Assembly: GCA_902518835.1 (NCBI GenBank)
Contig: CABYHH010000007.1
Span: forward strand, 1-46,864
Reading direction: 5' to 3'
DNA: 46,864 nt
Source: an uncultured Pelagibacteraceae bacterium
GTDB lineage: Bacteria; Pseudomonadota; Alphaproteobacteria; Pelagibacterales; Pelagibacteraceae
Of this stretch, positions 21,160 through 46,767 are shown piece by piece (position 1 is the first letter of the stretch; the number at the start of each line of letters is the position of its first letter). Under the pieces are notes generated by a model. The model saw only the letters and a list, made by a program, of their open reading frames with translations. It was not told the DNA's origin and searched no databases. The translations under genes were made by a program, and so were the position numbers.

Positions 21160-21840
21160 TTATCCAATACCCTTCCAGGTATTTCCATCAGGTGTATAAT
21201 GATGATAAACAGAATGACTTGGGTCATAGAGAAAGTTCATATTGTTTTTTCTAATTTCTATGGCCCAATATCTATCTTCTTTACCAGATAAATTCTCATC
21301 AAATTTAAATTTAAGGAGTGTTTCTTTTTTATAGAATGAAAAAGCATTATGGAGAAAGTATCTATTTTCCATTGAGGAAAACATATTCTCTTCTTTTTTG
21401 TCCCCAAAATGTTCCCATATATATCGACTCGTTATCCTTTTTCCATCGATAACTGGAATTTGTTTTCCAAATACTGCTGAAAACTTTTTTAAACTCTCAA
21501 TCAATAAGCCGTGGTCTAAGTCTTTAATGACACAATGACTCGATATTATCATTAGATTATCATGCTTAGCTAACTCGACCCCTTTATTTAGAGCTTTTCC
21601 CGGTGTATAGTCTTTAATATTTTTAATACTAATATCACAATAATTAGACAATTCATTATTTGAAAAATTTGGATTAATTCTAAAATTTCTGGCAATCTCA
21701 ATTGTTCTATCATTAGAATTATTATCAATAATTAATATCTCTGGTTTATAAAAATTATCTATTACAGATTGGATTGTGTGGCCAACCCATCTTTCTTCAT
21801 TTTTTGTTCTTAATAATATTGAAAATTGGTTTTTGGTCAT
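21160..21840 (-). CDS. Glycosyltransferase family 2 (GT-A), short form
   Basis: The 226-residue protein has the GT2 start I-L-L-R-T-K-N-E-E-R-W-V-G, then I-L-I-I-D-N-N-S-N-D-R-T and P-G-K-A-L-N-K-G. In place of the DxD it shows I-S-S-H-C-V, followed by G-K-E-D-R-Y-W-A, and it ends H-H-Y-T-P-D-G-N-T-W-K-G-I-G. This ending recurs in a GT2 group from sugar-acid loci as far as I can recall, so I take the protein as complete rather than truncated despite its small size. Its downstream partner is only a remnant now. The S-S-H-C variant means metal binding may differ from classical GT-A enzymes. Confidence 0.82.
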   Translation of the reverse strand: MTKNQFSILLRTKNEERWVGHTIQSVIDNFYKPEILIIDNNSNDRTIEIARNFRINPNFSNNELSNYCDISIKNIKDYTPGKALNKGVELAKHDNLMIISSHCVIKDLDHGLLIESLKKFSAVFGKQIPVIDGKRITSRYIWEHFGDKKEENMFSSMENRYFLHNAFSFYKKETLLKFKFDENLSGKEDRYWAIEIRKNNMNFLYDPSHSVYHHYTPDGNTWKGIG

Positions 21841-26081: not shown

Positions 26082-26922
26082 ATATATAGAAAGTTTGATT
26101 AAAGCCGATAAAATTAAACATACAGTTGATAAAAGTATAAACTTTCAATTTCAAATAGGATCAAAAACATTAGGTGAGGAAAAAGTTTTAATTGCCGGTC
26201 CATGTTCAGTTGAGTCAAAAGATATGATCATAGATGTTTCTTTAAAATTAAAAGAAATTGGTGTTGATGCCCTAAGAGGTGGTGCTTATAAACCTTGCAC
26301 ATATCCTGTGAGAAAATCTGTAAATGGTTGGAAAGAAGGGTTGCAGAAAGAAGGTCTTGAATATTTATTGAATGCAAAAGATAAATCTGGCCTGCCTATT
26401 GTTACAGAGGTTATGGATGCCTCGAAAATAAATTTAGTATCAGAATATGCGGATATTTTTCAGGTAGGTACAAGAAATTTCCAAAACTACACGCTTCTAG
26501 ACGAACTTGGAAAACAAGATAAGCCCATCCTATTAAAAAGAGGCACGTGGGGAACTTTAGATGAGATATTGGGAGCATGTGAAAGAATTATTGAAGGTGG
26601 AAACACTAAAATTGCAATATGTTTAAGGGGTGTTGTGGGCATGCCAAGCTATAGGCATATTTTTCCATCAACAAGATGGGCTCCAGATTTAATGATGATT
26701 CCAGCACTTAAGGAATTTACAAATATCCCAATTATATATGATCCAAGCCATGCTACTGGTTATAGAAATTTTGTTTTACCAATCTCAAAAGCTGCAATGG
26801 CACTAAATGTGGATGGATTAATTGTTGAATGCCATCCAAAACCTGAGAAATCTATAAGCGACCCTGATCAGGCTATAACATTTAATAATTTAAAAAAAAT
26901 AAAAGAACTCTTCAAGAATTAA
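26068..26922 (+). CDS. DAHP-synthase-like (class I-beta) PEP aldolase with altered aldose-phosphate site
   Basis: Family members condense phosphoenolpyruvate with an aldose phosphate to make a 3-deoxy-ulosonate. The 284-residue protein shows I-A-G-P-C46-S-V-E-S (metal Cys), L-R-G-G-A-Y-K75-P, T-E-V-M-D, I-F-Q-V-G-T-R-N, L-L-K-R-G-T, D-P-S-H-A and I-V-E-C-H-P, the frame of Thermotoga/Bacillus-type DAHP synthase without ACT or chorismate mutase domains. The segment that binds the erythrose-4-phosphate phosphate is normally K-P-R-T-S-P; here it is K-P-C77-T-Y-P. The substrate is therefore likely different. It is the last gene of the operon, so it probably serves glycan rather than aromatic synthesis; the latter is not excluded. 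Confidence 0.85.
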   Translation: MTKNEYIESLIKADKIKHTVDKSINFQFQIGSKTLGEEKVLIAGPCSVESKDMIIDVSLKLKEIGVDALRGGAYKPCTYPVRKSVNGWKEGLQKEGLEYLLNAKDKSGLPIVTEVMDASKINLVSEYADIFQVGTRNFQNYTLLDELGKQDKPILLKRGTWGTLDEILGACERIIEGGNTKIAICLRGVVGMPSYRHIFPSTRWAPDLMMIPALKEFTNIPIIYDPSHATGYRNFVLPISKAAMALNVDGLIVECHPKPEKSISDPDQAITFNNLKKIKELFKN

Positions 26923-30529: not shown

Positions 30530-31600
30530 TTAATATTTCTTAACATCCTTCATCCTAATCACATCACCATTTTTGATATTCTTAATAATTTTTTTACCTA
30601 ATATATCTTTAGCCTTATATGGAGGAAGAGCATTTAATGGACAAGGTCTCAAAAATATCAAATCAGATCTATTTATTCTTGAGCCCTTTTTAATATTTTT
30701 ATTAACTCTTATTGCGCGTTTTTGAACTATAGCGGGTTGGATTTCATTTTTTTCAATAACTTTTTTTCCATTACCTAGTGATTTTTCTAACTCTCTTGCT
30801 CTATTAATCATTTCCTTCCATGTTTCAGGATTCATTGAAAATTTATGATCTGGTCCATCCAAGCTATTGTCAATAGTAAAATGTTTTTCAATCATTCTGG
30901 CACCTAGTGTAATCGCTCCTAAAACTGTACTATGGCCACTTGTATGATCACTAAGTCCTAATATAACATTTGGAAATTTTTTTTTATATAACTTTAAAAC
31001 ATTTAAATTGATAAAATTAAAATTATCTTTTGAATTTGTATAATTGGTGTTGCATTGCATAAGGCAAATTTGCTTATTATTTTTTTTCAAAATTTTAATT
31101 GCCATTTCAACTTCTTTAAAATTGGATGCACCTGATGCTAGTATCACGGGTTTTTTTTTTTTTGATATATATTTTAGAATATCATGCCAGGTTATATCAC
31201 CAGATCCAATTTTATAAACGGATACATATGGATCTATATGATCCACCATATCAAAATCATATGGGCTAGTAAAAAAATCAATACCTACTTTATCACATTC
31301 TTTTTTTAATATTGGTGTCCAAGATAAGTTGATTGATGCATCTTTATAAACTTCAAAAACGCTTTTTTTCCATTTAGCTTGATGGGATAATTTACCCTTA
31401 AGGGATTTAAAACCAAAATCGCTTACTATCGTCTCTGCAGAAAAATGTTGAAATTTTGCAGCATCTGCTCCTGCAGCTTTAGCAGCATGAATTAATTCTT
31501 TAGCTCTCTTAAGTGATCCATCATGGTTCGCTGCAATATCAGCAATAAAATAAGTTTTTGATTTGTTCGAGATAGTTTTTTTATTTATCTTAAATTTCAT
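30530..31600 (-). CDS. neuB: Nonulosonic acid synthase (NeuB/PseI/LegI family)
   Basis: Condenses PEP with a six-carbon N-acyl amino sugar to a nine-carbon nonulosonic acid. In the 356-residue protein, F-I-A-D-I-A-A-N-H-D-G-S and D-A-A-K-F-Q-H-F begin the barrel. Y-K-I-G-S-G-D, I-L-A-S-G-A-S, G-L-S-D-H-T, I-E-K-H-F-T and D-H-K-F-S-M-N-P-E follow, and the SAF (antifreeze-like) domain has R-A-I-R-V-N-K-N-I-K-K-G. A TTG at 31606 gives two more residues; the ATG at 31600 is preferred. The start A-D-I-A-A-N-H-D-G-S resembles PseI/legionaminate types more than sialic acid types, but I cannot tell which. A run of 13 T (31151-31163) encodes four lysines. Confidence 0.91.
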   Translation of the reverse strand: MKFKINKKTISNKSKTYFIADIAANHDGSLKRAKELIHAAKAAGADAAKFQHFSAETIVSDFGFKSLKGKLSHQAKWKKSVFEVYKDASINLSWTPILKKECDKVGIDFFTSPYDFDMVDHIDPYVSVYKIGSGDITWHDILKYISKKKKPVILASGASNFKEVEMAIKILKKNNKQICLMQCNTNYTNSKDNFNFINLNVLKLYKKKFPNVILGLSDHTSGHSTVLGAITLGARMIEKHFTIDNSLDGPDHKFSMNPETWKEMINRARELEKSLGNGKKVIEKNEIQPAIVQKRAIRVNKNIKKGSRINRSDLIFLRPCPLNALPPYKAKDILGKKIIKNIKNGDVIRMKDVKKY

Positions 31601-31602
31601 AA

Positions 31603-33648
31603 TCAATTTAATCTTGAAAACGTAGATTGAGAAACTGGTCCTTTAAGAATAGATTTTGATTTTATTTGTTTTTTTTTAAATTTTGATATTTTTTTTATAA
31701 TAATTTCAAATTCTTTTAAATAATTTAAAATTATTTTTCGAGTGTGTGCAGTGCTAACATAAATTGTATTAGTAGCCAAAATATTCTTCTTCAACATTTC
31801 TTGTGTCAAATATGTTTTCAAAACTTGATGATCATTATCAAAAGTAAATGTTGGCATAGCATTTAATCCTGAAATATTAATATTTATATTATATTTTTCA
31901 CAAATCTCTTTCCATTTCTTTTTTATAAATTCTCCAGAGCGATTAATTTTGTTCCATGGTTTTGTTTTTTCCATTATTTCTATGGTTTTTAAAGCTGCCG
32001 AAACTCCTATTTTTTCAGTCCAAAAAGTACTGCTGACAAATGTGTTTTTTGCTTTTTTCATAATTTTATTTTTTCCCAAAACTGCTGTTATTCCATAACC
32101 ATTTCCAATTGCTTTTCCAAATGTTGCTATGTCAGGATTAACCCCATATTGTAAATGTAGACCACCAAGATTATATCTAAAACCTGTTGTACATTCATCA
32201 AATATAAGAATTATTTTATTATCATTACAAATTTTTCTAATTTTTTTTAAAAAATTATTTTCTGGTTTAAAATTTCTAGAAACTTCCATTATTAAAGAAG
32301 ATATTTTATTTTTATTATTTTTAATAATATTTATTAGTTCATTGATTTCGTTATATTTAAAAGCTAGGATGCTATTTTTTAATGATTTGCTTACACCCTC
32401 CGTCTTAATCCCTTTTAATAAATGTTGATCTACTTTTTTATCAACTAAATTATTTGCTAAATACCAATCATTCCATCCGTGATAACCACAAAAGATCACT
32501 AAATCTTTTTTTGTAAAAGCTCTTGATAATCTAATTGCGATTGAATTAGCGTCGGCGCCAGTTCTTGCAAATTTAACCATATTAGACCACTTATGAATTT
32601 TAATTAGTTTTTCTGCTAAAATTATTTCATCAGGATTGTTTAATGTTGTAAGATTACCGGACTTTATTGCTTTAGAAACAGACTTATTTACTTGAGAATT
32701 GTTGTATCCTAGAATATTTGTTCCAACTCCCATAAAACTCAAGTCCAAATATTTTTTTTTATCTAAACCCCAAATTTTACAACCTTCTGATTTGGTATAA
32801 TAGGTCGGCCAATTCTCTGGTAGAAAAATCTCTGGTCTTTTAGATAAAAGCATATTACCTCCTGGAATTACTTTTTTTGCTCGTTGCCAATATTTAAAAT
32901 TTTTTGACATTAATGACCCTTGATTATTAATAATATCTTTATTTATTTTTGATAAATCCTTATTTTTTTTTAAAATATTTATCATATCATTCATAGTAAA
33001 ATCTATATTTTGTATTTTTTTAAGAAGTATTTTTATAAGTTTAAGATCTTTTGATTCATCAACTGATAACCTAAAATTTGATAAATTGTTTGATAATTTA
33101 AAATTAAATTTTTTCAATTTTTTACTTCGCTTAATAAAAGGGGTTACGTGCTCTTTATCATGCGAAGAAGTTGCATTTTTATAAGCTAATTCAAGAGATC
33201 TAAAATTAAAAACTTCTACATCAAACCCATCAGGATAAGTATATTCTAAAGTATTACTTACATAATCAAATTTTGTTTTAAATTTTTTATTATCTATTTT
33301 ATTAATAAATTTATCAATAATTCTATGATCAACAAAAGGACAATCACCAGTTATTCTTATTATGATTTTCGATTTATCTTTTTTCGCAATTTTATAATAC
33401 CTATTAAGTACATTTTCCTCACTTCCACGAAAAACTTTTACTTTACTATTTTTAAATAATTTACAAAGCTTGTTATCTTCAGATTTAGTTGTTGTGGCTA
33501 AATAAAAACTATTGATTTTTTTGGATCTAAATAATCTTAAAAATAAAAATTCAATTAAAGAATAATCCTTGTTTATTTTTTCTAAAACTTTATTTGGATA
33601 CCTTATGGAACCACATCTTGCTTGAACTATTACAGTTATATTTTCCAT
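31603..33648 (-). CDS. Fusion: SpsF-type cytidylyltransferase + glutamate-1-semialdehyde aminotransferase-like protein
   Basis: A 681-residue bifunctional protein. Residues 1-235 form an SpsF/NeuA-like CMP-sugar transferase (V-I-V-Q-A-R-C-G-S-I-R-Y-P-N-K-V, R-I-T-G-D102-C-P-F-V-D107, N-F-R-L-S-V-D). Residues 247-681 form a class III PLP aminotransferase of the GSAM type: K-V-I-P-G-G, R-T-G-A-D-A-N, G-Y-H-G-W-N-D, I-F-D484-E-C-T-T-G-F-R and T-F-G-K512-A-I-G-N-G with the Schiff-base Lys. An internal Met at 247 (base 32910) would begin a normal aminotransferase, so the fusion is end to end. Between neuB and an aldo/keto reductase, it probably supplies the sugar amino group and CMP-activates the nonulosonic acid. 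Confidence 0.89.
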   Translation of the reverse strand: MENITVIVQARCGSIRYPNKVLEKINKDYSLIEFLFLRLFRSKKINSFYLATTTKSEDNKLCKLFKNSKVKVFRGSEENVLNRYYKIAKKDKSKIIIRITGDCPFVDHRIIDKFINKIDNKKFKTKFDYVSNTLEYTYPDGFDVEVFNFRSLELAYKNATSSHDKEHVTPFIKRSKKLKKFNFKLSNNLSNFRLSVDESKDLKLIKILLKKIQNIDFTMNDMINILKKNKDLSKINKDIINNQGSLMSKNFKYWQRAKKVIPGGNMLLSKRPEIFLPENWPTYYTKSEGCKIWGLDKKKYLDLSFMGVGTNILGYNNSQVNKSVSKAIKSGNLTTLNNPDEIILAEKLIKIHKWSNMVKFARTGADANSIAIRLSRAFTKKDLVIFCGYHGWNDWYLANNLVDKKVDQHLLKGIKTEGVSKSLKNSILAFKYNEINELINIIKNNKNKISSLIMEVSRNFKPENNFLKKIRKICNDNKIILIFDECTTGFRYNLGGLHLQYGVNPDIATFGKAIGNGYGITAVLGKNKIMKKAKNTFVSSTFWTEKIGVSAALKTIEIMEKTKPWNKINRSGEFIKKKWKEICEKYNININISGLNAMPTFTFDNDHQVLKTYLTQEMLKKNILATNTIYVSTAHTRKIILNYLKEFEIIIKKISKFKKKQIKSKSILKGPVSQSTFSRLN

Positions 33649-34499: not shown

Positions 34500-35489
34500 T
34501 TACTTAAAGTTTTTAATTAAATTTTGTAAATTTTTTACAGTTAAAAAATGGTTATTTGATCCAGAGTCATATCTAAATGATCCATTAACCATTTTTGATT
34601 TTTTAAACTTCTTTTTTAATTGATCGCAAAGTTTTTTTGATTGAATTTGAATATAATATTTTCCAATATCTAATATGAAATCACTTTCGTTCTTAAAAAC
34701 TAATTCTTCATGCAATTTTTCACCTATTTTAATTCCTGTAAACGTTAATTTACTCTTCGGACTAATTGCTTTTGCTAAATCTACAATATTATAAGATGGT
34801 AATTTAGGAATATAAATTTCTCCTCCAAGATTATTTTGCAAAGACCATAAAACCATGTTTACACTTTCTTCAATAGTAATGTTAAATCTAGTCATTCTTT
34901 TATCTGTAACAGTTAATTTGCCCTTTTTTCTTTGTTCAAGGAAAATTGGTACAACAGATCCTCTACTACCAAATACGTTTCCATATCTAACTACAGAAAA
35001 CTTTAAAGCTCTGTTTCCCTTAATATTATTGGCAGAAAGAAAAATTTTATCAGAACATAGTTTTGTGGCACCATATAAATTCGCCGGTGCTACTGCTTTA
35101 TCAGTTGAGAGTGCTATTACATTTTTTACTTTATTATTTATTGAGGCATTTACAATGTTTTGTGATCCCATGATATTTGTTTTTACAAATTCGAAAGGAT
35201 TATACTCAGCAGCACTAACATGTTTAAGTGCTGCCGAATGGACAATGATGTCCATGTCTTGAAAAGCTAGATTCAATCTTTCATAATCTCTTATATCTCC
35301 TAAAAAATATCTAATGCATGGATATTTCTTTTCATTAAATATTTGAGACATCTGATGTTGTTTCTGTTCATCTCTAGAAAAAACAACTAATTTCTTAATT
35401 TTTGGATATTTTTTTAATGCAATTTCTATAAATTTTTTTCCAAAAGTTCCTGTTCCACCTGTAATTAAAATTGATTTATTATTTAACAT
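34500..35489 (-). CDS. pseB: UDP-N-acetylglucosamine 4,6-dehydratase, PseB/FlaA1 type
   Basis: First step to pseudaminic and related sugars: NAD-dependent 4,6-dehydration (with C5 inversion in PseB) of UDP-GlcNAc. The 329-residue protein starts M-L-N-N-K-S-I-L-I-T-G-G-T-G-T-F-G, the classical PseB opening. R-D-E-Q-K-Q, A-A-L-K-H-V (Lys replacing Tyr in the active site), S-T-D-K-A-V, Y-G-A-T-K and R-Y-G-N-V-F-G-S-R-G-S-V follow. A longer frame starts at 35513, inside the previous gene. The ATG at 35489 is chosen because an AGGA lies about five bases upstream, one of the few clear ribosome sites here. Confidence 0.92.
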   Translation of the reverse strand: MLNNKSILITGGTGTFGKKFIEIALKKYPKIKKLVVFSRDEQKQHQMSQIFNEKKYPCIRYFLGDIRDYERLNLAFQDMDIIVHSAALKHVSAAEYNPFEFVKTNIMGSQNIVNASINNKVKNVIALSTDKAVAPANLYGATKLCSDKIFLSANNIKGNRALKFSVVRYGNVFGSRGSVVPIFLEQRKKGKLTVTDKRMTRFNITIEESVNMVLWSLQNNLGGEIYIPKLPSYNIVDLAKAISPKSKLTFTGIKIGEKLHEELVFKNESDFILDIGKYYIQIQSKKLCDQLKKKFKKSKMVNGSFRYDSGSNNHFLTVKNLQNLIKNFK

Positions 35490-35496
35490 AGTTGTC

Positions 35497-36366
35497 CTAT
35501 AAAAAATTTGCATCCATTCTTGATAACTTCAACGGATTATTTAAATTAGATTTATTTTTTTTAATTGTAAATGCAAATTTATAATTTAATTGTTTTAATA
35601 TTTTTAAAGTATTCTTGTTATACAATCCATATGGATAACTAAAAAAATTATCGTCAAGTAAGTCATATTTTTGTAAGATATCGTGATTTTTTTTAATTTC
35701 GAAAAACTGATCCTTATATTTTAATCTTGTTAGTGGATAATGGTTATATGTATGATTTCCAAAAATCATGCCATTTTTTTTCATTTCTAATGCTTGGTCC
35801 AAATTTAAGTAAAATTCTTTAAATAATTTTTTATGATTAATTTTTAAAAAATTGTAAAATATTAAATTAAGAATTTTCGAAGATATAGAAAATGGAAGAT
35901 AAATTTGAAATATATATTTTAAAATTGATGTATTTTTAGTATCTAGGGGTCTATATTTTGCGCCTTTATTAGAAATATTATTTACATAAAATCTTTTTTT
36001 AGAAAATTTATTTACAAGTTCCTCTACTAGATACAACAAATTTTCACTTTTAAAATTATTAGCAATTATTTGAATTTTGTTTACATCTAAAAAATCTTTT
36101 TTTTCAAAGACCTTCCCATTTAAAAAAAACAATGATGGTTTATTTTTTAAAAATTTTTTATAAATATTATAGTGGTCTTTATATCCATCATCAAAAGTTA
36201 ATAAAACATTATTTTTTTTATCATTTTTCTCCAAATAGATTGGGTTAATTATCTTTTTTTTATTTTTTTTTAATAACAAAGAGAATTTCTTTTCTGGATA
36301 ATAATTTACTTTAATATTTGTATTTTTTTTTTTAATAAAATGAAACATTCCAGTTGTAAACATCAT
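35497..36366 (-). CDS. Polysaccharide deacetylase (carbohydrate esterase 4)
   Basis: The 289-residue NodB-type protein has V-L-L-T-F-D-D-G-Y (catalytic Asp and metal Asp), G-N-H-T-Y-N-H (metal histidines), and F-S-Y-P-Y-G-L-Y. In contrast to the CE4 protein at 2621-3478, the N-terminus ahead of the T-F-D-D motif is short (about 77 residues) and has no membrane segment. It starts one base before the GalU remnant's stop and is followed after seven bases by pseB. In this position it might deacetylate an intermediate of the nonulosonic acid or a finished glycan residue. Confidence 0.86.
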   Translation of the reverse strand: MMFTTGMFHFIKKKNTNIKVNYYPEKKFSLLLKKNKKKIINPIYLEKNDKKNNVLLTFDDGYKDHYNIYKKFLKNKPSLFFLNGKVFEKKDFLDVNKIQIIANNFKSENLLYLVEELVNKFSKKRFYVNNISNKGAKYRPLDTKNTSILKYIFQIYLPFSISSKILNLIFYNFLKINHKKLFKEFYLNLDQALEMKKNGMIFGNHTYNHYPLTRLKYKDQFFEIKKNHDILQKYDLLDDNFFSYPYGLYNKNTLKILKQLNYKFAFTIKKNKSNLNNPLKLSRMDANFL

Positions 36367-36860: not shown

Positions 36861-38342
36861 ATGGCTAATCATTTAGTATCTTTTTATGTAAATAATTATA
36901 AATTTTTTATATCGATTAGAAATCATTTTAAATTAGATAAAATTACTAGATTATCATTATTACGAATAAAGAAATTGTTAAGTAAAAATAAATACTTAAG
37001 AAATCATCTAAAAAAAAAATATGGAAAAATAGAAATCTTATATCCTGAGGGATGTTCTTTAATAGATGAAAAAATTATAATTGATATTCTAAAAACTTAT
37101 TCAAATAGAAAAGTTAAGCTTAGTATTATTGGTGGAATATCTGGCTCAGTTCCCACATCAATAATAATAAATTCAGGAACTCAAAAAAAAAGATATTTTA
37201 TTTTTAATCAAAAAATTTCTGGAGTGAATTTTGATACAAACCGTCCATTAAGAAAATTTTTATATAATAAACTAATCAACAATTATAAAAAAATTTTAGA
37301 AATGGAATTTAATGAAATTGTAAAATTTCTTAAGACTAAAGAGTCAATAAATTTTTTTCTAAGGTACGGGAATAAATCAATTAAAATATATAATATTAAT
37401 AAATGTCCCAATTGTTTTTCAAAAAATACAATTAAACTATTTCACTCTGAAGGAAATACAATTCAGGGCTTTTTACCCAGCTCAAATTCTCTTTATAATT
37501 TATGTAGGGAATGTGAATTAGTTTTTTCAAACAAACAAGTAAGTAAAGAAAATTTAAAAATTTATTATCAAAACTTTGCATATGAAAGAAAAAAATCAAC
37601 AAAAAATCATATGAAATTACTTAAAAATTTAAATGAGTACAACACTTCACATTTTTCAAATTATCTACACAGTGCAAAAAAAATTAAAAGATCAAAAAGT
37701 ATTTTAGATCTTGGATCGGGAAATGGAGAATTTGTTTCTTTAGCAAGAAAAATAAATAAAAATACAAAAATTTCTGCGTTAGATTGGTTTATGCCAAAAA
37801 ATCTTAAAAGTGCTTTAAAAAGCTTAAATATAATTCCCTACACTTCACAAATTTCAATAGAGTCATTAAGAAAATTAAATCTTAATAAATTTGATTTAAT
37901 TACGATGTGGGAGGTTATTGAGCATTTTAAAATTGATGATTTGAAAAAAATATTAATTTACATTAAAACTTTAATGACAGACAATGGATTCTTAATTTTG
38001 TCTACACCTGATTTTGATGATCCTCATTGCAAAAGTCTTGATTTCTGGAGTATGGCCGCAGGAGAACATTTGAGTGTCTTTAATGAAAATAGTATAAAAA
38101 ATATATTGAACAACACTGGATACTATGTGAAGAACATAGAAAAAGAGTCTGTTACAATTAAAAAAGCTAATGCTTGGTATGATTATGGACTTAAGACAAA
38201 TAGTAGCTTAGCTGGACGCGGTTCAGCACAAATGATTGAGCAAATATTAAAAAATAAAAAGCTTAGAGAGAAATATAAATACATATCTCGAAAAAATAAA
38301 ATTGGAAGTGAAATGATAATTGTTGCAGGAAAACAAACTTAA
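36861..38342 (+). CDS. SAM-dependent methyltransferase with an unusual N-terminal domain
   Basis: The 493-residue protein has three parts. Residues 1-175 form a basic, unrecognised domain with G-G-I-S-G-S-V-P near 92. C182-x2-C185 and C215-x2-C218 form a zinc ribbon. A class I SAM domain follows, with S-I-L-D-L-G-S-G-N-G-E (281-290), M-W-E-V-I-E-H-F and S-T-P-D-F-D-D. The zinc-plus-SAM part resembles methyltransferases of polysaccharide loci. It begins the plus-strand mixed block after a 271-base divergent spacer. The acceptor is unknown; a sugar or lipid-linked glycan is likely. Confidence 0.8.
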   Translation: MANHLVSFYVNNYKFFISIRNHFKLDKITRLSLLRIKKLLSKNKYLRNHLKKKYGKIEILYPEGCSLIDEKIIIDILKTYSNRKVKLSIIGGISGSVPTSIIINSGTQKKRYFIFNQKISGVNFDTNRPLRKFLYNKLINNYKKILEMEFNEIVKFLKTKESINFFLRYGNKSIKIYNINKCPNCFSKNTIKLFHSEGNTIQGFLPSSNSLYNLCRECELVFSNKQVSKENLKIYYQNFAYERKKSTKNHMKLLKNLNEYNTSHFSNYLHSAKKIKRSKSILDLGSGNGEFVSLARKINKNTKISALDWFMPKNLKSALKSLNIIPYTSQISIESLRKLNLNKFDLITMWEVIEHFKIDDLKKILIYIKTLMTDNGFLILSTPDFDDPHCKSLDFWSMAAGEHLSVFNENSIKNILNNTGYYVKNIEKESVTIKKANAWYDYGLKTNSSLAGRGSAQMIEQILKNKKLREKYKYISRKNKIGSEMIIVAGKQT

Positions 38343-38403: not shown

Positions 38404-39792
38404 ATGATTAAGAAACCACAACCAATAGATAGTAATTTACATGAAAAGGATTTTCAATTAGGTATAACAAAGTTTGGTTTAAATAGTGATGTTAAATTTT
38501 GTTCAAAATGTATCATATCAAATCAAAGACCTAATTCAGAAATAGAGTATAGACACACAGCAGGTACAAAAAAAAAAACGATTTATTTTGATGAAAATGG
38601 AGTTTGCGATGCTTGTAATGTGGCAGCAAGAAAAAAATCAAAAATTGACTGGGAAAAAAGAGAGCAAGAATTAATTCAATTATGTAAAAAATTTAAAAGT
38701 AATAAAAAAGGTGAATATGACTGTATTGTACCAGGCTCAGGTGGTAAGGACAGTTTTTATACTTCACATATTCTTAAATATAAATACGGAATGAACCCTT
38801 TAACTGTTACCTGGTCTCCTAACATGTATACAGATTGGGGTCGTAAAAACATGGATAATTGGGTTAATTCGGGTTTTGATAATATTTTATTTACGCCAGA
38901 TAGAAAGGTTCAGCGGTTGCTCACTAGGTTGTCAGTAGAAAATCTTTTTCATCCTTTTCAAGCTTTTCAATTTGGGCAAAAATCTCTTGCACCTAGATTA
39001 GCCTCAAAATTAAATATTAAATTAATTTTTTATGGAGAAAATCAAGCAGAATATGGAAATAGTTCTGATGATCTTTCAAGTCCGTTAATGTCAAATCGTT
39101 TTTTTTCCTTAGAAACTATAAACGAAAACGAGATTTTTTTAGGAGGTGTTAGTGTATCGGAGTTAAAAAGTAAATATGGCTTAAATGATAATGATTTTAA
39201 TAATTATCTTCCTTTAAAAACAGATGATGTTAAGAAAAAAAATATTGAAGTCCATTTTTTAAGCCATTATCTAAAATGGCATCCTCAAGCCAATTATTAC
39301 TATGCTGTAAAACACGGAAATTTTATTACTAGTCCAGAAAGAATGCCAGGTACATATACAAAATTTGCTTCAATAGATGATAAAATGGAAGATTTTAATT
39401 ATTATACATTAGGCATTAAATATGGAATTGGATGGACTTCATACGTTGCATCATGGGAAATAAGAGACGGTGATTTAACAAGAGAAGAGGGAATTGCATT
39501 AGCAAAAAAGTATGACTTAGAATTCCCATCTAGATTTTCACAAGATTTATATAATTATATTTCTTTACCAAGCAACGAATATCCAAAAGCATCTAAAAAT
39601 TTTGAAGAACCAATAGTTGACCATGAATATTTTATGAATTTACATGATAAATTTAGATCACCACATATATGGAAAAAAGAAAAAGGTAAATGGGAGTTGA
39701 GACATAAAATATGGGAAACCGATGCTAAGAGGAATGTTTCAAAAAAATCAGATATTTATACTTGGGAGGGAAATAAAAAAAATAATACATAA
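38404..39792 (+). CDS. N-acetyl sugar amidotransferase, PseA/WbpG/LegG type (acetamidino synthesis)
   Basis: Converts an N-acetyl group of a sugar to acetamidino using ATP and ammonia delivered by HisH/HisF-like partners. The 462-residue protein has two zinc Cys pairs, C33-x2-C36 and C68-x2-C71, and the ATP PP-loop P-G111-S-G-G-K-D-S117. It also has F-Y-G-E-N-Q-A-E-Y-G and an aromatic-rich C-terminus, all typical. Its HisF and HisH partners are in the window at 44017-45404 but separated by four other genes. With neuB nearby, an acetamidino-pseudaminic or -legionaminic acid is the natural product to expect; UDP-amino-hexuronic acid (WbpG) is the alternative. Confidence 0.9.
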   Translation: MIKKPQPIDSNLHEKDFQLGITKFGLNSDVKFCSKCIISNQRPNSEIEYRHTAGTKKKTIYFDENGVCDACNVAARKKSKIDWEKREQELIQLCKKFKSNKKGEYDCIVPGSGGKDSFYTSHILKYKYGMNPLTVTWSPNMYTDWGRKNMDNWVNSGFDNILFTPDRKVQRLLTRLSVENLFHPFQAFQFGQKSLAPRLASKLNIKLIFYGENQAEYGNSSDDLSSPLMSNRFFSLETINENEIFLGGVSVSELKSKYGLNDNDFNNYLPLKTDDVKKKNIEVHFLSHYLKWHPQANYYYAVKHGNFITSPERMPGTYTKFASIDDKMEDFNYYTLGIKYGIGWTSYVASWEIRDGDLTREEGIALAKKYDLEFPSRFSQDLYNYISLPSNEYPKASKNFEEPIVDHEYFMNLHDKFRSPHIWKKEKGKWELRHKIWETDAKRNVSKKSDIYTWEGNKKNNT

Positions 39793-39804
39793 AAACATTT
39801 AATA

Positions 39805-41064
39805 ATGAACTTTAGTATTACACAAAAAGAGGTAAAAAAATTCGCAAATTATAGTGGAGATTTTAACCAAATTCATATTGATTGGTTAACAGGTTACAAT
39901 TCCCTTTATGGGGAAAATATTGCTCATGGTGTTTTGGTAATATTTAATGTTTTAAAAAAAATTAAATTACAAAAATTTTATAATATTAAATTTAATTTCT
40001 TATCACACATATCCTTAAACCAACAAATTAATATAAAAAAGATAAATAAAAATTACTATAAAATTTATCAAAACAAAAAAATATGCATTTTGATTGAATT
40101 TAACAGTTTTTTTGAAAATATTGATTTAAGTTATCTAAAGAAAAAAATTTATCCAAACTATTTAGAATGTAAAAAATTTAGTCATCCTTTGGTTGAAAAA
40201 AATTTAAAATGGTCTTTATCTGCTTTATCAAAATTTGTTGGTATGGATACTCCAGGTAAAAATTCACTTATATCGAGTATTCATATAATAAAAAATAAAA
40301 ATGTTTTTTATAAAAAAAATAAGTTTCAAATTTTTTATAAGAAAATCAAAAAAACACCACTTTTTGAGAATTATCTATTGTTTAAGGAATTTGAGATAAA
40401 ATTTATTAGTGCTTATAGACCAATTTTTAAAATCAAAAAAACACCAAAACCATCTAATAAATTAACAAATAAAATAAAATCAATAAAAAGAAATATTTTT
40501 ATTTTAGGTGCAAGTACAGGTCTTGGTTATGAATTTTTAAAGATATGTAAATACAATAAAAAAATAAAAATTTTTGCTAGTTATAATCAAAATAAAATTG
40601 ATTTAAGAGGTAAAAACATTTTTTGTCTTAAGCTAAATATTGAAAAAGATATGAAAAAAGTATTAAAAATTATTCAAAAATATCAACCATTAAATATGTA
40701 TTATTTTGTATCACCAAAAATTTTTTTTATGAATACAAATATTTTATATAAAGAAAAATATAAAAAATATTATTGTGAATATCCTGAAAAAATTTTGAAA
40801 AATTTTTCAAAAAAAGGAAACGGTTTTTTTTATCCATCTTCAATTTTAGCTAAAAAAAAAGATTCTTATTATTCTCAATATAAAGCTATCGGTGAAAAAG
40901 TAATTCAAAAATTTAAAAATAATAAATTTGTTAAAGTTAAAATTATAAGATTACCTGGTCTTAAAACAAAACAAACTGTGACATTAATAGAAAACAAATA
41001 TCCTTTTTTTACCGATTATTTAAAAGATAATTCAAAATACTTTGATCAAATTTTATTTAAATAG
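39805..41064 (+). CDS. Fusion: MaoC-like hydratase + short-chain dehydrogenase
   Basis: The 419-residue protein combines two acyl-modifying folds. Residues 1-115 are a MaoC hot-dog domain: Y-S-G-D19-F-N-Q-I-H24-I-D holds the catalytic Asp/His, and I-A-H41-G-V-L closes the motif. The C-terminal part, from about residue 230, is an SDR with I-L-G-A-S-T-G-L-G-Y-E, Y-P-S-S-I-L (Ser) and Y-Y-S-Q-Y-K (YxxxK). These would hydrate an enoyl thioester and oxidise/reduce the hydroxyl. The middle (120-225) is unassigned. It ends one base before the convergent GNAT gene; the ACP and FkbH genes lie just beyond on the other strand, so ACP-bound acyl groups are the likely substrates. Confidence 0.8.
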   Translation: MNFSITQKEVKKFANYSGDFNQIHIDWLTGYNSLYGENIAHGVLVIFNVLKKIKLQKFYNIKFNFLSHISLNQQINIKKINKNYYKIYQNKKICILIEFNSFFENIDLSYLKKKIYPNYLECKKFSHPLVEKNLKWSLSALSKFVGMDTPGKNSLISSIHIIKNKNVFYKKNKFQIFYKKIKKTPLFENYLLFKEFEIKFISAYRPIFKIKKTPKPSNKLTNKIKSIKRNIFILGASTGLGYEFLKICKYNKKIKIFASYNQNKIDLRGKNIFCLKLNIEKDMKKVLKIIQKYQPLNMYYFVSPKIFFMNTNILYKEKYKKYYCEYPEKILKNFSKKGNGFFYPSSILAKKKDSYYSQYKAIGEKVIQKFKNNKFVKVKIIRLPGLKTKQTVTLIENKYPFFTDYLKDNSKYFDQILFK

Positions 41065-41065
41065 A

Positions 41066-42046
41066 TTATGAAGGTCTATCCTGATCACAATCTCCTTTAA
41101 AAATTTTTAATTTCCTTAAATTTTCCATATATGCAAATCTAATTTTTATATTTTTTTTTACAAAAGGTTCATAATAGTTTGGCACAATAATTTCTTTTTT
41201 AAAATTATTTAGTTTAAAAGGAAAATTTTTTCTATTTATGGAGGCACCATATTCATAAAAATCTATATATTCTGCATTTTTGCTTTCTAGAAGTTTTATT
41301 AATTCAGCATGAAGATTATAAAAATTATTTAAGTTTCCCATATAATCTACAATTCTTATTGCATAATTTTTTTTAAAAGAGCAGATTCTAGTTACAAAAA
41401 AGCTTTTGAGTTTCTTATCATGAAAAATACCATAAAATTCATATTTATATATTGGATGTTTAAAATATCTATTAATAAAAAAGATAAAATCTTTATTACT
41501 ATTTTTAATAATTACTTCATTTAATTTTTTGAGCTGCGAAATTTTTTTTATATGATAATCAATATTTATTTTACTTCTATTTTTAAAAATATTTTTACTT
41601 TTAACTAAATTAAATTTTCTTTTATTACTGTTTATAAAATACCAATGATTCAAATATCCAGTTTTAAAACCTAATTTTTTTAGAATTACTTCTGTCTTTT
41701 GAGAATTTCCAGTTGTGCCAATCATATTACTTTTTTTAAAAATTCTACTTATTAATGAGAGTGAGTTCGCAGAATTTTTTATTGTAAGCCAATTTACTAG
41801 CCAATATGTATCATTTCCCTTTAAAAATTTTGAATACTGACTGTTAGGAATAAAGCCCAGGCATCCAACTATTTCTTTATTTTTGATACAAATTAGAAAA
41901 TTATACTTTTTCGTAATCGGGTTATAAAATTGCCAATTAAAGAATTTTTTATTTTTTGCGAGAATATGTTTTTTTTTCCAAAATTTTCCTATAAAAAACA
42001 TTAATTGATTTAAATCTTTTTTTGTACATAATTTTATAATATTCAT
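41066..42046 (-). CDS. GNAT-like N-acyltransferase
   Basis: The 326-residue protein has an acyl-CoA/ACP N-acyltransferase pattern. It starts N-I-I-K-L-C-T-K-K-D-L with W-K-K-K-H and W-Q-F-Y-N, then V-G-C-L-G-F-I-P (strand 4) and M-I-G-T-T-G-N-S. An unusual conserved-looking tail K-G-D-C-D-Q-D-R-P-S ends the protein; I associate such a tail (D-G-D-Q-D-R-P-N) with transferases of sugar loci. It follows the ACP gene after 43 bases, so the donor may be acyl-ACP and the acceptor the amino group of a nonulosonic acid. Donor and acceptor are inferred. Confidence 0.7.
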   Translation of the reverse strand: MNIIKLCTKKDLNQLMFFIGKFWKKKHILAKNKKFFNWQFYNPITKKYNFLICIKNKEIVGCLGFIPNSQYSKFLKGNDTYWLVNWLTIKNSANSLSLISRIFKKSNMIGTTGNSQKTEVILKKLGFKTGYLNHWYFINSNKRKFNLVKSKNIFKNRSKINIDYHIKKISQLKKLNEVIIKNSNKDFIFFINRYFKHPIYKYEFYGIFHDKKLKSFFVTRICSFKKNYAIRIVDYMGNLNNFYNLHAELIKLLESKNAEYIDFYEYGASINRKNFPFKLNNFKKEIIVPNYYEPFVKKNIKIRFAYMENLRKLKIFKGDCDQDRPS

Positions 42047-42089
42047 TGAGAATCGACTTTTAAAAATCCATAAGAATTTTTTTTCAAGT

Positions 42090-42314
42090 TTATTTTTTTT
42101 TAATTGCTTTAATAATTTCCTTTATTGATTTAAGTTCTAACATTTCAGAAACAGAAAATTTGATTTTAAATTTTTTTTCTAAAGAAATCAAAAATTGAAG
42201 ATGACTAATTGAGTCCCATTCATTAAAATCGCCAACTTTTAAATATTTTGTAAATTTTTTGCGTTTAAAAATTCTTTTAAATATTAGTTCTACTACATTT
42301 TCAATTTTTTTCAT
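42090..42314 (-). CDS. Acyl carrier protein
   Basis: A 74-residue carrier protein with the phosphopantetheine site E-W-D34-S35-I-S-H followed by the recognition helix, and K-K-F-K-I-K-F as the third segment. A TTG at 42323 would add three residues; the ATG at 42314 is the more likely start and overlaps the FkbH-like gene by 14 bases. Unlike housekeeping ACPs, it is basic rather than acidic in the N-terminal third. The coupling with FkbH implies that the carrier is loaded with a three-carbon glyceryl or similar acyl unit. Confidence 0.85.
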   Translation of the reverse strand: MKKIENVVELIFKRIFKRKKFTKYLKVGDFNEWDSISHLQFLISLEKKFKIKFSVSEMLELKSIKEIIKAIKKK

Positions 42315-43980
42315 AAATATCAATATTGTCTAACTTAAGTGTTTTTTTATTACAGAAATATAAAATTGAATTATTTCCATTTGCCAATCTAGGAATATTA
42401 GTGTTTTTGTTCAATTTCTTTATCTCGCTCTTTGAAATTTTTTTAAATCCATGATTTTTGAAAACATCTTTGGAAACGATGTTTTTTTTAGTTGGTATAT
42501 ATTCTGCAACTAAAGAAATAATTTGTTTTTTCTCTATTAAATCAAAAAGTTTTTTTATTATCCAAGTTTCTAAGTGCCGGCCTAAAATTCTACAACTTAA
42601 AATAAATGTATCTAAAAAATAAGTTTTACTATTTATTCTTCTCAAAATTATAAGACCAATATTGCCATGATCACCATAAAGATCCTGCAGAGATACTAGG
42701 AAAGAAAAGTTTTCTCTGTTAGAAATAATTTTTTTCATTTCACTTAAACTATATCTGACAGTCCTCAAGTTAAATTGATTAGTTTTCAGAGTTAATTGCG
42801 ATGCTCTAGAAATATTTGATTTATCTATTTTAATGATTTTAGGATTAAGTTTGATAGATTTAAGATAATCTTTTTCATTTTTTGATATTTTTTTTTCTGA
42901 AATGAATTCAAACCTTTTTTTATATTGAAGAGTTTTATTTTCATCTTCTTTAGATGGTTTTAAATTAACAAAAAAATTAAGTGCTTCTAATTTAGAAGGC
43001 CACTCATGAATATCTTCGCCGACCTCTATTGTGGTTACTTCTGGTATTTCTTTTATCATTTTTGCTCTTTCAATAGGATTATCATCCCAAAAAACAAAGC
43101 TATCTAATCCTAAACCCAATTCATTTGCCAATTCTTTAATATTTATAGTTTTGCTTCTCCAATTTATTTTATACGCAGTAATATCATTGATCTTCAAAAT
43201 CATAGATTTATGATTTTTGAAAACATCAATAACATCTGTCTCATTATTTTTACTTGCTAGTACAAGGAGAATTCCTTGTTTCTTTATTTTGAGTATCGTT
43301 TTTTGAAAGTCAGAAAAAATCTTACCTACTCCATCAGTGCCTAACTTAATATTTTCGATTCCATCTTCACCAATAATACCCCCCCATAACGTGTTATCGC
43401 AGTCTAAAACTAGTACTTTTTTTGATGGATGTTTAATTTTAAAAATTACTTCAGAAAGTGAATTAACAATTTTTTTTAAACCAAGTTCAGAAAATCTACA
43501 TCTAGCAACATACCAGTTCCTATTATCAAAAATTTGTAAAAATCCATGATTTGAAAATGTTTCATCAAGATCAATAACATAAAAATTTGTGAATTTCTTT
43601 TTTAAAATGTTTATTTTTGTTTCTAAACTAGTGAAGTGTTTTTTGATATTATCTTCAGTTTTAATATTTCTTATGTAGTTTTTAGGATACCATTTTGAGT
43701 AAAAAAATAGTACTTCTTGATTACTGATAATCTTTTGCTCTATAAGATTTAAGATGTTGTCGATAATTTTTTGATTAATTTTATTATTAGGATAATCAAT
43801 TACATCAATTAGAAGAAAAAAAATTACTTCAATTTTATTACGAATTTTGTTTAAGTTTTGACTAGATAGTTTACCATAATCATTAAAATTTAATTTATAT
43901 TCTTTTTTTATATCATTCCAAATATTATGATTATCAAATAAATAGGATGTACTTGATATATCTAGATTTATTTTTTTCAT
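42301..43980 (-). CDS. FkbH-like HAD-superfamily protein (acyl-ACP loading)
   Basis: HAD-IIIC proteins of the FkbH type move the glyceryl unit of 1,3-bisphosphoglycerate to a carrier protein as glyceryl-ACP. The 559-residue protein has an N-terminal SGNH-like region (residues 50-160), then the HAD core V-L-V-L-D193-C-D195-N-T-L-W-G-G-I-I-G-E-D-G. L-A-S-K-N-N-E, F-W-D-D-N-P-I-E-R and a C-terminal GNAT-like half with G-D-H-G-N-I-G-L follow. Length agrees with the family. It heads the FkbH-ACP-GNAT unit. The product could be an unusual hydroxyacyl decoration of the amino sugar. Confidence 0.88.
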   Translation of the reverse strand: MKKINLDISSTSYLFDNHNIWNDIKKEYKLNFNDYGKLSSQNLNKIRNKIEVIFFLLIDVIDYPNNKINQKIIDNILNLIEQKIISNQEVLFFYSKWYPKNYIRNIKTEDNIKKHFTSLETKINILKKKFTNFYVIDLDETFSNHGFLQIFDNRNWYVARCRFSELGLKKIVNSLSEVIFKIKHPSKKVLVLDCDNTLWGGIIGEDGIENIKLGTDGVGKIFSDFQKTILKIKKQGILLVLASKNNETDVIDVFKNHKSMILKINDITAYKINWRSKTINIKELANELGLGLDSFVFWDDNPIERAKMIKEIPEVTTIEVGEDIHEWPSKLEALNFFVNLKPSKEDENKTLQYKKRFEFISEKKISKNEKDYLKSIKLNPKIIKIDKSNISRASQLTLKTNQFNLRTVRYSLSEMKKIISNRENFSFLVSLQDLYGDHGNIGLIILRRINSKTYFLDTFILSCRILGRHLETWIIKKLFDLIEKKQIISLVAEYIPTKKNIVSKDVFKNHGFKKISKSEIKKLNKNTNIPRLANGNNSILYFCNKKTLKLDNIDIYEKN

Positions 43981-44016: not shown

Positions 44017-44775
44017 ATGATACATAACCCAAGATTAATCGCAAGACTAGATATTAAAGGAAATAACCTCATTAAAGGTTTGAGATTTGAAGGTCTTAGA
44101 GTAATAGGTTCAGCAAAAGAATTTGCAAAAAAATATTATAAACAAGGTATTGATGAAATAATTTATGTAGATAGTGTTGCTAGTTTGTATGGAAGAAATA
44201 GTTTGACTGATCTAGTTGATTTTAGTACAGAAAATATTTTTGTTCCTGTAACGGTTGGAGGTGGTATAAAATCTTTAGATGATGTACAAAAAGTATTGAG
44301 GGCTGGTGCAGATAAGATTGCTATCAATACTGCTGCAATTGAAAATAAAAAATTAATAAAAACAATTTCTGATAAAATAGGTTCTCAATCATTAACCATA
44401 TCTATTCAAGCAAAAAAGAGAGATAAAAATCATTGGGAGGCATTCAAAATATGTGGGCGAGAACCAACAGGAATAGATGTAATTGATTGGGTAAAAGAAA
44501 TAGAAAATTTGGGAGCAGGAGAAATTTTTTTAACATCTATCGATCAAGATGGTACTGAGCTTGGATTAGATAAAGATTTAGTTAAGTTAGTTACGGAAAG
44601 TACTAATCTTCCAGTTATTGCATCTGGTGGCTCAAAAGATGTTGATGATATTTTGAGAATATTTCAAGAGACAGATGTAAGTGGTATTGCTATTGGGTCT
44701 ATTCTTCATCATAAAAAAATAGATATTAAAATGATCAAAAACGAATTAGAAAAAATAATAAAAAAAAAAACATGA
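44017..44775 (+). CDS. HisF-like cyclase paralogue, partner of sugar amidotransferase (HisF2)
   Basis: In the amidotransferase pathway this barrel conducts ammonia from HisH to PseA/WbpG rather than making imidazole. The 252-residue protein has R-L-D12-I-K, V-T-V-G-G-G-I, A-D-K-I-A-I-N-T-A-A, T-S-I-D-Q-D-G-T-E and I-A-S-G-G. The catalytic Asp of histidine synthesis (D130 of Thermotoga HisF, in A-I-D-A-K-R) is Q131 here (S-I-Q-A-K-K-R), which argues against a role in histidine synthesis. The ATG is only ten bases after a TATAAT (44002-44007), so if that is a -10 box the mRNA would be almost leaderless. An ATGA overlap links it to hisH. Confidence 0.88.
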   Translation: MIHNPRLIARLDIKGNNLIKGLRFEGLRVIGSAKEFAKKYYKQGIDEIIYVDSVASLYGRNSLTDLVDFSTENIFVPVTVGGGIKSLDDVQKVLRAGADKIAINTAAIENKKLIKTISDKIGSQSLTISIQAKKRDKNHWEAFKICGREPTGIDVIDWVKEIENLGAGEIFLTSIDQDGTELGLDKDLVKLVTESTNLPVIASGGSKDVDDILRIFQETDVSGIAIGSILHHKKIDIKMIKNELEKIIKKKT

Positions 44776-45404
44776 ATGTTTCAATAATTGACTATGGTAC
44801 AGGAAATATCAAAAGTATTTCGAGAATTTTTAAAAAGTTTGAAAATAATATAAATATAGTTAATGAGCCAAAAGAAATTAAAAATTCAACACACTTGGTT
44901 CTTCCAGGGGTTGGTGCATTTCCAAAAGCAATGGAGCTTCTAAATAAAAAAAATTTTATCCCTGAAATTAAAGAACATGTTTTAAAAGGAAAACCTTTAT
45001 TAGGAATTTGTCTTGGTATGCAATTGTTGTTTTCCTCAAGTAATGAAATTAGGAAAACTGCAGGATTAGATTTAATTAAAGGAGAAGTAATTAAATTGCC
45101 TGAAAATGAGACTAAGAGCAAAAAATTTAAAATACCTAATGTTGGATGGCATCAAATAACGATAAATAAAATTAATATAAATAAATCAATATATTCAGAT
45201 TTATCTAAAGCAAAATTTTACTTTGTTCACTCGTATTATTGTAAAACTGATGATGAAAATTGTAATTTATTTCATATCAAATTTAATAAATCAAAAATCT
45301 GTGTTATTGCACAAAAGGATAACATTATTGGCACACAATTTCACCCAGAAAAAAGTGGTGAAAATGGATTTAGATTAATTAAAAAATTTATAAGGAATAA
45401 ATGA
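44772..45404 (+). CDS. HisH-like glutamine amidotransferase, partner of sugar amidotransferase (HisH2)
   Basis: Class I glutaminase of 210 residues that releases ammonia. It begins S-I-I-D-Y-G-T-G-N, with L-P-G-V-G-A-F forming the oxyanion-strand region. The nucleophile is C80 in L-L-G-I-C-L-G-M-Q, and G-T-Q-F-H-P-E-K-S holds the catalytic His and Glu. It is coupled to the HisF paralogue by ATGA. Together they form the ammonia supplier of the PseA/WbpG-type protein encoded 5 kb away. The 70-base convergent gap after it shows no clear terminator. Confidence 0.88.
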   Translation: MNVSIIDYGTGNIKSISRIFKKFENNINIVNEPKEIKNSTHLVLPGVGAFPKAMELLNKKNFIPEIKEHVLKGKPLLGICLGMQLLFSSSNEIRKTAGLDLIKGEVIKLPENETKSKKFKIPNVGWHQITINKININKSIYSDLSKAKFYFVHSYYCKTDDENCNLFHIKFNKSKICVIAQKDNIIGTQFHPEKSGENGFRLIKKFIRNK

Positions 45405-45474: not shown

Positions 45475-46767
45475 CTAAAAAGGTATATCTTTTTTTAAGA
45501 TCAAATTGAATCTATATAATTTTTTTTCTATTTCTTTTATCTTTTTCATTTTTAAATTACATTTATTCATGATTTGATAAATCGAAGTTAGACCATCACA
45601 ATATGACAAAAGATTAGTTAAATTACTCAGGTCTTTATAATTTTTATATTTTTCAATTTTAGATGGGTAAAGAGAACGTTTAGAAAGAAAAACTTCACAT
45701 TTAAATTTAGATTTGAGAAAATAATTTGCCTCTACATGCTTTATTAAATCCTTATAGAATAAAAAAGATTTATTCAATCCTTCATTCGTGACAACCTTTC
45801 CAAGAATATCTGCTGAAGTATGATATTCAGGATATTCCATAAACTTACTTCTCATAACTGATGCTATGGGCAAATCTACTCCTGGTGAGCAAAATTGTCT
45901 TTCATCACTTCCTCGATCTAGCCATGTATAGGATTTATAATTAATTTTTTTTTTTTTTAATAAATTTATTATCACATGATCTGAGAATGAATTCTCTTTA
46001 CGACTTGGTAAGTAAGAGAATTTTCTATTATCACCTAAACAAGTTAAATTGAAACCACAGATAACATTCTTTTTTAATTTAATTAGATTATTCTTGATAT
46101 ACGAAATAGAGCCAATAGTTTCAGGTATAAAAATTAATCTGTAACTATATTTTCTATTTTTTAAACTCTCAATAAATTTTGATAAATATATTTGAATTGT
46201 TGGTCCTGATAATTCATTATTTGCCATAGAAGGATGACAAATATAAGTTGATAATAATATTTCTTTTTTTGAGTTACCTTTTACAAGTATTTCACCATAA
46301 CTCATTCTTCCCTTTTTATGTTCGGCATCTATATGAACTTCATAAATTTGTTTTTTTGAGAGTTTTTTTCTTTTATCATGTTGGATGCAAAAACCCCAAT
46401 TTTTTTCATAATAACTTGTAACATAAGGAATAAGATTAGGCTGATTAGGGATAGAGTATAAATGTTTGTCTAATTCTTTAAATGATAATTTTTTTTTAAC
46501 AGAGGATGAAAAATTTAATAAATGAAGATTATTTTTTTTAAAATCAATTATTTTTTTTCCTTTAACCTTGATCCAAGCTTCTTTAACACTCCATTCATGT
46601 GGCACAACCCAATCAAAAACTTTTGAACCTGACCTAAAACTTTTTATCTTTAAGTTTTTATTTATTTTTTTTAATTCATGCAGAGTTTTTAAATTTGCCG
46701 GACCTGCCAAACTTCTATTAAGAGGAAATAGTTTTTTAATTAATTTATAAAATTTATTATTTTTCAT
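45475..46767 (-). CDS. DUF4910 aminopeptidase-like protein
   Basis: The 430-residue protein matches the DUF4910/DUF2172 type (M28-like fold with C-terminal winged helix) common in polysaccharide loci. It starts L-F-P-L-N-R-S-L-A-G, then V-P-H-E-W-S-V-K-E-A-W. The presumptive metal site is made from I-C-H-P-S-M-A-N-N-E-L-S-G and Y-H-T-S-A-D, with I-P-E-T-I-G-S between. The last 60 residues form a small helical domain. Function is unproven; peptidase or amidase action on a modified amino sugar is possible. The longest homopolymer of the window, 14 T (45945-45958), lies inside. Confidence 0.78.
   Translation of the reverse strand: MKNNKFYKLIKKLFPLNRSLAGPANLKTLHELKKINKNLKIKSFRSGSKVFDWVVPHEWSVKEAWIKVKGKKIIDFKKNNLHLLNFSSSVKKKLSFKELDKHLYSIPNQPNLIPYVTSYYEKNWGFCIQHDKRKKLSKKQIYEVHIDAEHKKGRMSYGEILVKGNSKKEILLSTYICHPSMANNELSGPTIQIYLSKFIESLKNRKYSYRLIFIPETIGSISYIKNNLIKLKKNVICGFNLTCLGDNRKFSYLPSRKENSFSDHVIINLLKKKKINYKSYTWLDRGSDERQFCSPGVDLPIASVMRSKFMEYPEYHTSADILGKVVTNEGLNKSFLFYKDLIKHVEANYFLKSKFKCEVFLSKRSLYPSKIEKYKNYKDLSNLTNLLSYCDGLTSIYQIMNKCNLKMKKIKEIEKKLYRFNLILKKDIPF

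Follow-up and report, generated by a model that had tools for sequence, protein, structure and literature searches.

A candidate lactyl-donor module of FkbH, acyl carrier protein, GNAT-like and MaoC-SDR genes in a pseudaminate-type cluster of a Pelagibacteraceae bacterium

A stretch of 46,864 nucleotides from an uncultured Pelagibacteraceae bacterium (contig CABYHH010000007.1 of assembly GCA_902518835.1; hereafter the window) carries genes for an FkbH protein, an acyl carrier protein (ACP), a GNAT-like protein and a fusion of a MaoC domain with a short-chain dehydrogenase/reductase (SDR). We consider it fairly probable that these four genes and their neighbors form a trans-acting acyl-donor module that supplies lactyl groups in a pseudaminate-type glycan cluster. 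Bacterial surface sugars carry both lactyl and glyceroyl groups, and to our knowledge the activated donor of these groups is mostly unknown. The source genome comprises 1.0 Mb in 42 contigs, with a local GC content mostly of 0.2-0.3. An earlier note on this DNA had placed the four-gene set at 39805-43980, and all four genes were found exactly there, arranged tail to tail as follows.

39805..41064, plus strand: MaoC-SDR fusion, 419 amino acids, proposed dehydratase-ketoreductase (DH-KR) converting glyceryl-ACP to lactyl-ACP (domains, alignment, model, family-level profile homology)
39853..39876, plus strand: MaoC catalytic motif SGDFNQIH (Asp19, Asn21, His24), from the alignment; also present in lankacidin-type members
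40507..40527, plus strand: SDR nucleotide-binding motif GASTGLG, from the alignment
40834..40884, plus strand: SDR catalytic residues, Ser345 to Tyr356-x3-Lys360, from the alignment
41066..42046, minus strand: tandem-GNAT-like protein, 326 amino acids, candidate acyltransferase carrying G-D-x-D-Q-D-R-P near its C-terminus (weak Pfam match, low-confidence model)
42090..42323, minus strand: acyl carrier protein with a W-D-S-I site (PF00550), overlapping the end of the FkbH frame
42301..43980, minus strand: FkbH, HAD-IIIC glyceryltransferase/phosphatase (TIGR01686)

In the proposed scheme, FkbH would transfer a glyceryl group from 1,3-bisphosphoglycerate to the ACP. The MaoC half of the fusion would then remove water from glyceryl-ACP, with the C3 hydroxyl leaving and the resulting enol passing to pyruvyl-ACP, and the SDR half would reduce the 2-keto group to yield lactyl-ACP. 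Finally, the tandem-GNAT protein would move the lactyl group to an amine of a nonulosonate or of its nucleotide-sugar precursor. We infer in this way the substrate, the product and its stereochemistry, the acyltransferase and the acceptor. The loading step has a precedent in methoxymalonyl-ACP (FK520 type) and tetronate modules, where a free ACP likewise receives, through FkbH, the glyceryl group of 1,3-bisphosphoglycerate (PMC7489565). Those modules differ in what follows, which is oxidation and O-methylation or tetronate closure rather than dehydration and 2-keto reduction.

The loading proteins are readily recognized. FkbH scores 272.9 bits against TIGR01686 (curated cut-off 146.65), and its D193xD195xT197, D299-D300 and C463 are invariant in eight FkbH proteins taken from MaoC-SDR loci. 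The ACP scores 25.3 bits against PF00550 (cut-off 20.8), and its W-D-S-I sequence is the phosphopantetheine site. The accessible parts of PMC3765264 (on Shewanella flagellin) and PMC13130089 added nothing on FkbH or ACP. In single-sequence searches, the MaoC half of the fusion reaches 24.7 bits, under the Pfam cut-off of 27, and the SDR half matches NCBIfam only weakly (E 0.0014). Both halves are clear because their catalytic residues are kept across 41 aligned relatives. In the resulting 42-row alignment, Asp19, Asn21 and His24 of the MaoC motif are invariant, as are the GxxxGxG glycines, Ser345 and Lys360 of the SDR and, in addition, Gly146, Pro150, Gly151 and Glu364; Tyr356 is conserved in at least 90% of rows.

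An AlphaFold model of the fusion (mean predicted local distance difference test, pLDDT, 89.0; predicted TM-score 0.85) shows a predicted two-part hotdog, its halves read from the model strands, followed by a Rossmann domain. Searches against solved structures matched MaoC hydratases and FabG-like SDRs to parts of the protein, and among the matches listed none spans the whole. Foldseek returned the MaoC-type chains 4v12, 5i7n and 1iq6, all with low query TM-scores, and VIA-align matches were confined to the SDR half (model residues 218-419), which leaves that list uninformative on the hotdog half.

Judged by the generic activities of the enzymes that these parts resemble, the fusion could also reduce a beta-keto group and carry out hydration, thereby supplying 3-hydroxybutyryl or another 3-hydroxyacyl group as a thioester. 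The earlier note had named 3-hydroxybutyryl as a possible product; nonulosonic acids bearing this group are known, and a ketosynthase III (KSIII) gene lies beside a related module, L117. We regard such a product as very improbable. Domain scans, which covered 41 window proteins and left out the open reading frame at 21160-21840, found no ketosynthase, and the tight coupling to FkbH described below would be needless for hydroxybutyryl. With no ketosynthase found and FkbH left idle, 3-hydroxybutyryl supply was rejected as the first choice. Homology to a lankacidin-cluster DH-KR also argues against it, as the nearest characterized relatives are reported to make lactyl-ACP in the accessible part of PMC4765723.

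That source, citing He et al. 2014, describes conversion of glyceryl-S-ACP to lactyl-S-ACP by DH-KR bifunctional proteins in FR901464 and lankacidin biosynthesis. A table row in the accessible part of PMC7901079 writes FkbH loading of 1,3-bisphosphoglycerate as D-lactate-ACP. The order of MaoC then SDR in one chain is a trait of these glyceryl-ACP DH-KR enzymes, and it is found in the window protein. A Streptomyces griseofuscus plasmid (NZ_CP051007) encodes pqqA-E, an FAD-dependent oxidoreductase, a free dehydratase, polyketide synthase (PKS) genes, a MaoC-SDR, an ACP and a HAD-IIIC protein. Its MaoC-SDR scores 146 bits against the glycan-type profile, which has the window protein among its rows; in hhalign the alignment spans 439 columns (100% probability), and the catalytic motifs of both halves are common to the window family and the lankacidin-type members. 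Judged from these profile comparisons, the fusion family is homologous, at the family level and over its full length, to the lankacidin-cluster MaoC-SDR. Because of this homology and the reported DH-KR activity, the window protein would be expected to carry out the same glyceryl-to-lactyl reaction.

The bryostatin BryA loading module may be a further precedent. Nothing bearing on BryA in this role was present in the accessible parts of PMC7230173, PMC6164871 and PMC11857447.

An FkbH product could also be handled differently, with the fusion yielding another C3 group on the ACP, either pyruvyl (if the SDR is idle or runs in reverse) or an oxidized form such as tartronic semialdehyde, as in the methoxymalonyl-ACP model. 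The methoxymalonyl route does oxidize FkbH products (PMC7489565), and the accessible part of PMC6162330 left pyruvoyl-ACP and lactoyl-ACP open as lankacidin starters before preferring lactoyl. Such an outcome seems improbable, if less so than a 3-hydroxyacyl product, given that relatives keep the SDR catalytic residues and that Pfam scans of the same 41 window proteins (again without 21160-21840) found neither an FkbI acyl-CoA dehydrogenase nor an FkbK 3-hydroxyacyl-CoA dehydrogenase.

The lactyl reading draws further on the distribution of the fusion. Among 398 genomes of a phylum-level set, 16 have the fusion, either in full or, in one copy, truncated at the end of a contig. FkbH is present in every one of these 16 and in 58 of the 398 overall (Fisher 5.7e-15; this p-value and the one below overstate independence because the genomes are partly related). 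The fusion was called at a chosen threshold of E <1e-50, and FkbH by the independent model TIGR01686. Of 68 genomes with matches at <1e-20, 52 fall short of 1e-50, mostly with SDR-only or MaoC-only matches, and 11 of the 52 have FkbH. The phylum set contains 18 full-length fusion places: 13 are no more than about 6 kb from FkbH, four are on other contigs and one is 18 kb away (both of these tallies are hand counts). In a family-level set of 147 genomes, a protein search found the fusion in five and TIGR01686 found FkbH in eight (seven above its cut-off), with both together in four (Fisher 1.8e-5). A fifth genome with both is the one-contig G003, whose divergent MaoC-SDR adjoins FkbH and was missed by the first protein search.

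A scan of named genomes from many phyla gave, among the matches listed, 80 loci, comprising 38 full fusions and 42 partial matches. An FkbH gene is found no more than about 10 kb away for 31 of the full fusions versus 2 of the partial matches, as judged by FkbH and ACP profiles built from eight loci in which the fusion had been identified beforehand. Counted among the 38 are three megasynthases and PKS-type loci of actinobacteria; the family comprises at least these 38 full loci and as a whole is larger. In L117, from a genome of the same genus assembled as one contig, the ACP, KSIII, MaoC-SDR and FkbH genes occur with relatives of SpsF, an aminotransferase, WbuX, HisH and WbuZ. Nitrosomonas aestuarii and a Paraburkholderia are cultured bacteria that bear the fusion. 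Searches of viral contigs for relatives found none.

In planctomycetes the association with FkbH is covalent: the megasynthases of L050-L052 (3220-3301 amino acids) are single chains that begin MaoC-SDR-FkbH, and Pfam finds ACP, ketosynthase, acyltransferase and ketoreductase domains besides in L051 and L052. They appear to be polyketide synthases that contain their own lactyl loader. The proposals in the earlier note that FkbH and ACP provide the thioester, and that MaoC-SDR could remodel an ACP-bound acyl chain, which we take to be the FkbH product, are supported by the co-occurrence in 16 of 16 genomes, the megasynthase fusions and the lankacidin-type relative with its ACP and HAD-IIIC neighbors. 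A protein on an Ensifer plasmid (L102) likewise starts with MaoC-SDR. In a MaoC-SDR tree from which L037 was omitted, ten PKS-type rows form one clade (99/91) and the label changes once (100/100). Six SAR11-type rows form a separate clade (100/100), whose placement is unsure because these rows are long-branched and compositionally odd.

Separately, proteins of about 408-424 amino acids in G180, G187, G191, G219, G247, G287 and G327 align with the profile solely in its second-hotdog and SDR region (positions about 180-457), and each lies about 3-4 kb from an FkbH gene. Perhaps they represent a variant that has lost the first MaoC half.

The module sits inside a pseudaminate-type nonulosonate cluster, whose other relevant genes are these.

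30530..31606, minus strand: NeuB/PseI-type nonulosonate synthase (domain scan)
31603..33648, minus strand: cytidylyltransferase fused to a class III aminotransferase, CMP-sugar type (domain scan)
34500..35513, minus strand: PseB, first step of pseudaminate synthesis (TIGR03589, 451.6 bits, cut-off 407.75)
36861..38342, plus strand: class I SAM methyltransferase-domain protein, possible tailoring enzyme (PF13489)
38404..39792, plus strand: WbuX N-acetyl sugar amidotransferase, immediately 5' of MaoC-SDR (TIGR03573, 346.8 bits, cut-off 203.2)
44017..44775, plus strand: WbuZ/HisF-like amidotransferase partner (TIGR03572, 253.8 bits, under its cut-off of 299.7)
44772..45404, plus strand: HisH-type glutaminase partner (TIGR01855, 202.7 bits, cut-off 105.4)
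45475..46767, minus strand: DUF4910/DUF2172 aminopeptidase-like protein, assigned to the Cj1295 kind (PF16254, PF09940; 3k9t at 1.8e-86)

WbuX, WbuZ and HisH would install an acetamidino group at one amine, while the amine that accepts lactyl is perhaps freed by the DUF4910 protein. Cj1295 has been linked to pseudaminic acid in its di-O-methylglyceroyl form, and in the accessible part of PMC3068675 its authors proposed that it releases the C5 amine for methylglyceroylation. By analogy, the window protein may free an amine before lactylation. The cytidylyltransferase and class III aminotransferase fused here are separate adjacent genes in L117. Elsewhere in the window, plus-strand genes at 22289-26922 encode a cytidylyltransferase-2-hydroxyacid dehydrogenase fusion, an enolase-superfamily protein, a second 2-hydroxyacid dehydrogenase and a DAHP/NeuB-like synthase, a set suggestive of another CMP-ulosonate pathway, of an unusual kind.

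Within this cluster, the tandem-GNAT protein is a plausible and natural candidate for the acyltransferase. It matches Pfam only at E 0.16, and its low-confidence model (pLDDT 60.7) matches mainly tandem-GNAT proteins, including a glucosamine N-acetyltransferase. Relatives lie between FkbH and MaoC-SDR in L048, L039 and L045, the last a third locus with the window-type protein that was found in a separate comparison. A C-terminal motif, G-D/Q-x-D-Q-D-R-P, is kept in the window protein and in these three loci. An iterated GNAT profile was dropped after it drifted into MaoC-SDR sequences. The acyltransferase beside the module varies among the matches listed: the window tandem-GNAT family accounts for 2 of 38 loci, MBOAT proteins for 9, AAC(3)-like proteins for 5 and the family of L015:8585-9463 (no Pfam match) for 5, and a WcbI-like protein occurs in L101.

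Several observations weigh against a lactyl-donor module. The MaoC-SDR gene is outside the FkbH operon, on the opposite strand and 12 bases downstream of WbuX. The window protein is only 12-13% identical to the lankacidin rows, and the SAR11-type profile alone aligns with the actinobacterial profile (93.8%) only in the first part, across 239 columns. Moreover, that the NZ_CP051007 cluster is the lankacidin cluster, and its MaoC-SDR the tested enzyme, is our own reading, adopted because the cluster has pqq genes, which we take to belong to the lankacidin cluster, and because its gene set fits a published account. That account is the accessible part of PMC6162330. Nine loci have no FkbH nearby (L008, L017 and seven belonging to the 38); by TIGR01686, five of their genomes have FkbH elsewhere, and four, those of L008, L025, L031 and L037, have none. 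The full MaoC-SDR at L008:9517-10800 lies among housekeeping genes in a genome that is 93% complete, and it may have another role or be a relic. A tight coupling of GNAT and FkbH was rejected, since two of the three genomes with GNAT matches (147 searched) lack FkbH. Because relatives occur in FkbH-less genomes, the GNAT family as such is not bound to an FkbH-derived donor; the earlier note's choice of the GNAT as acyltransferase is favored by gene placement and weakened by those two relatives. Lastly, the fusion is missing from L118 of genome G042, where FkbH, ACP and a GNAT-type gene occur together.

The existence of such a locus is in keeping with a Campylobacter-like decoration, in which FkbH, ACP and GNAT alone would put glyceryl, later O-methylated, on pseudaminic acid, and MaoC-SDR would be unlinked or act on another substrate. 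The DUF4910 protein recalling Cj1295, the methyltransferase gene nearby and the position of the fusion on the WbuX strand fit this as well. We judge it unlikely, although the least so of the alternatives, because FkbH accompanies the fusion in all 16 genomes and is joined to it in L050-L052. The window resembles the Campylobacter jejuni flagellin system in its pseudaminate genes and Cj1295-kind protein, and differs in that the substituent would be lactyl rather than glyceroyl. We assign Cj1295 itself to the DUF4910/DUF2172 Pfam families, and genes for an amidotransferase, an FkbH-like protein and an ACP are present in C. jejuni as well; we know of no MaoC-SDR in that species.

A direct comparison of two loci bears on how glyceroyl and lactyl modules might be related. 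L006 and L118 are 62-84% identical in the genes that they share, namely those for ACP and FkbH, a 310-amino-acid gene, a GNAT-type gene and flanking genes. Only L006 has MaoC-SDR, and L118 instead has a 137-amino-acid glyoxalase-like gene (L118:7593-8006) within the cluster. This difference fits an optional cassette that alters the acyl group. Whether the fusion is such a cassette, switching a glyceroyl locus to lactoyl, with polyketide starter modules as its side branch, strikes us as close to an even question, tilting slightly toward no.

Like the lankacidin and FR901464 DH-KR systems, the window combines MaoC then SDR in one chain with FkbH and ACP partners, the same motifs and family-level homology over the whole length. 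Those systems feed a polyketide synthase, whereas the window has nonulosonate surroundings and no detected ketosynthase. Feeding a PKS ketosynthase in the same cluster is the mark of polyketide lactyl-starter loading, and the window is not classed there. The earlier note had found the enzyme combination unfamiliar. This holds for glycans, for which a literature search mostly without subscription journals found no report of the MaoC-SDR/FkbH combination or of lactyl-ACP, and not for polyketide biosynthesis, where DH-KR action on glyceryl-ACP is known. For these reasons we place the novelty in the use rather than in the chemistry: what seems new is the in trans use of glyceryl-to-lactyl conversion in surface-glycan loci.

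If correct, this reading would connect lactyl and glyceroyl groups on bacterial surfaces with glycolysis through a carrier-protein route whose enzymes are defined, and the presence of MaoC-SDR should predict lactyl instead of glyceroyl. It would also join a polyketide starter trick to glycan chemistry. For SAR11-type cells, the surface glycan so decorated would also be what phages meet.

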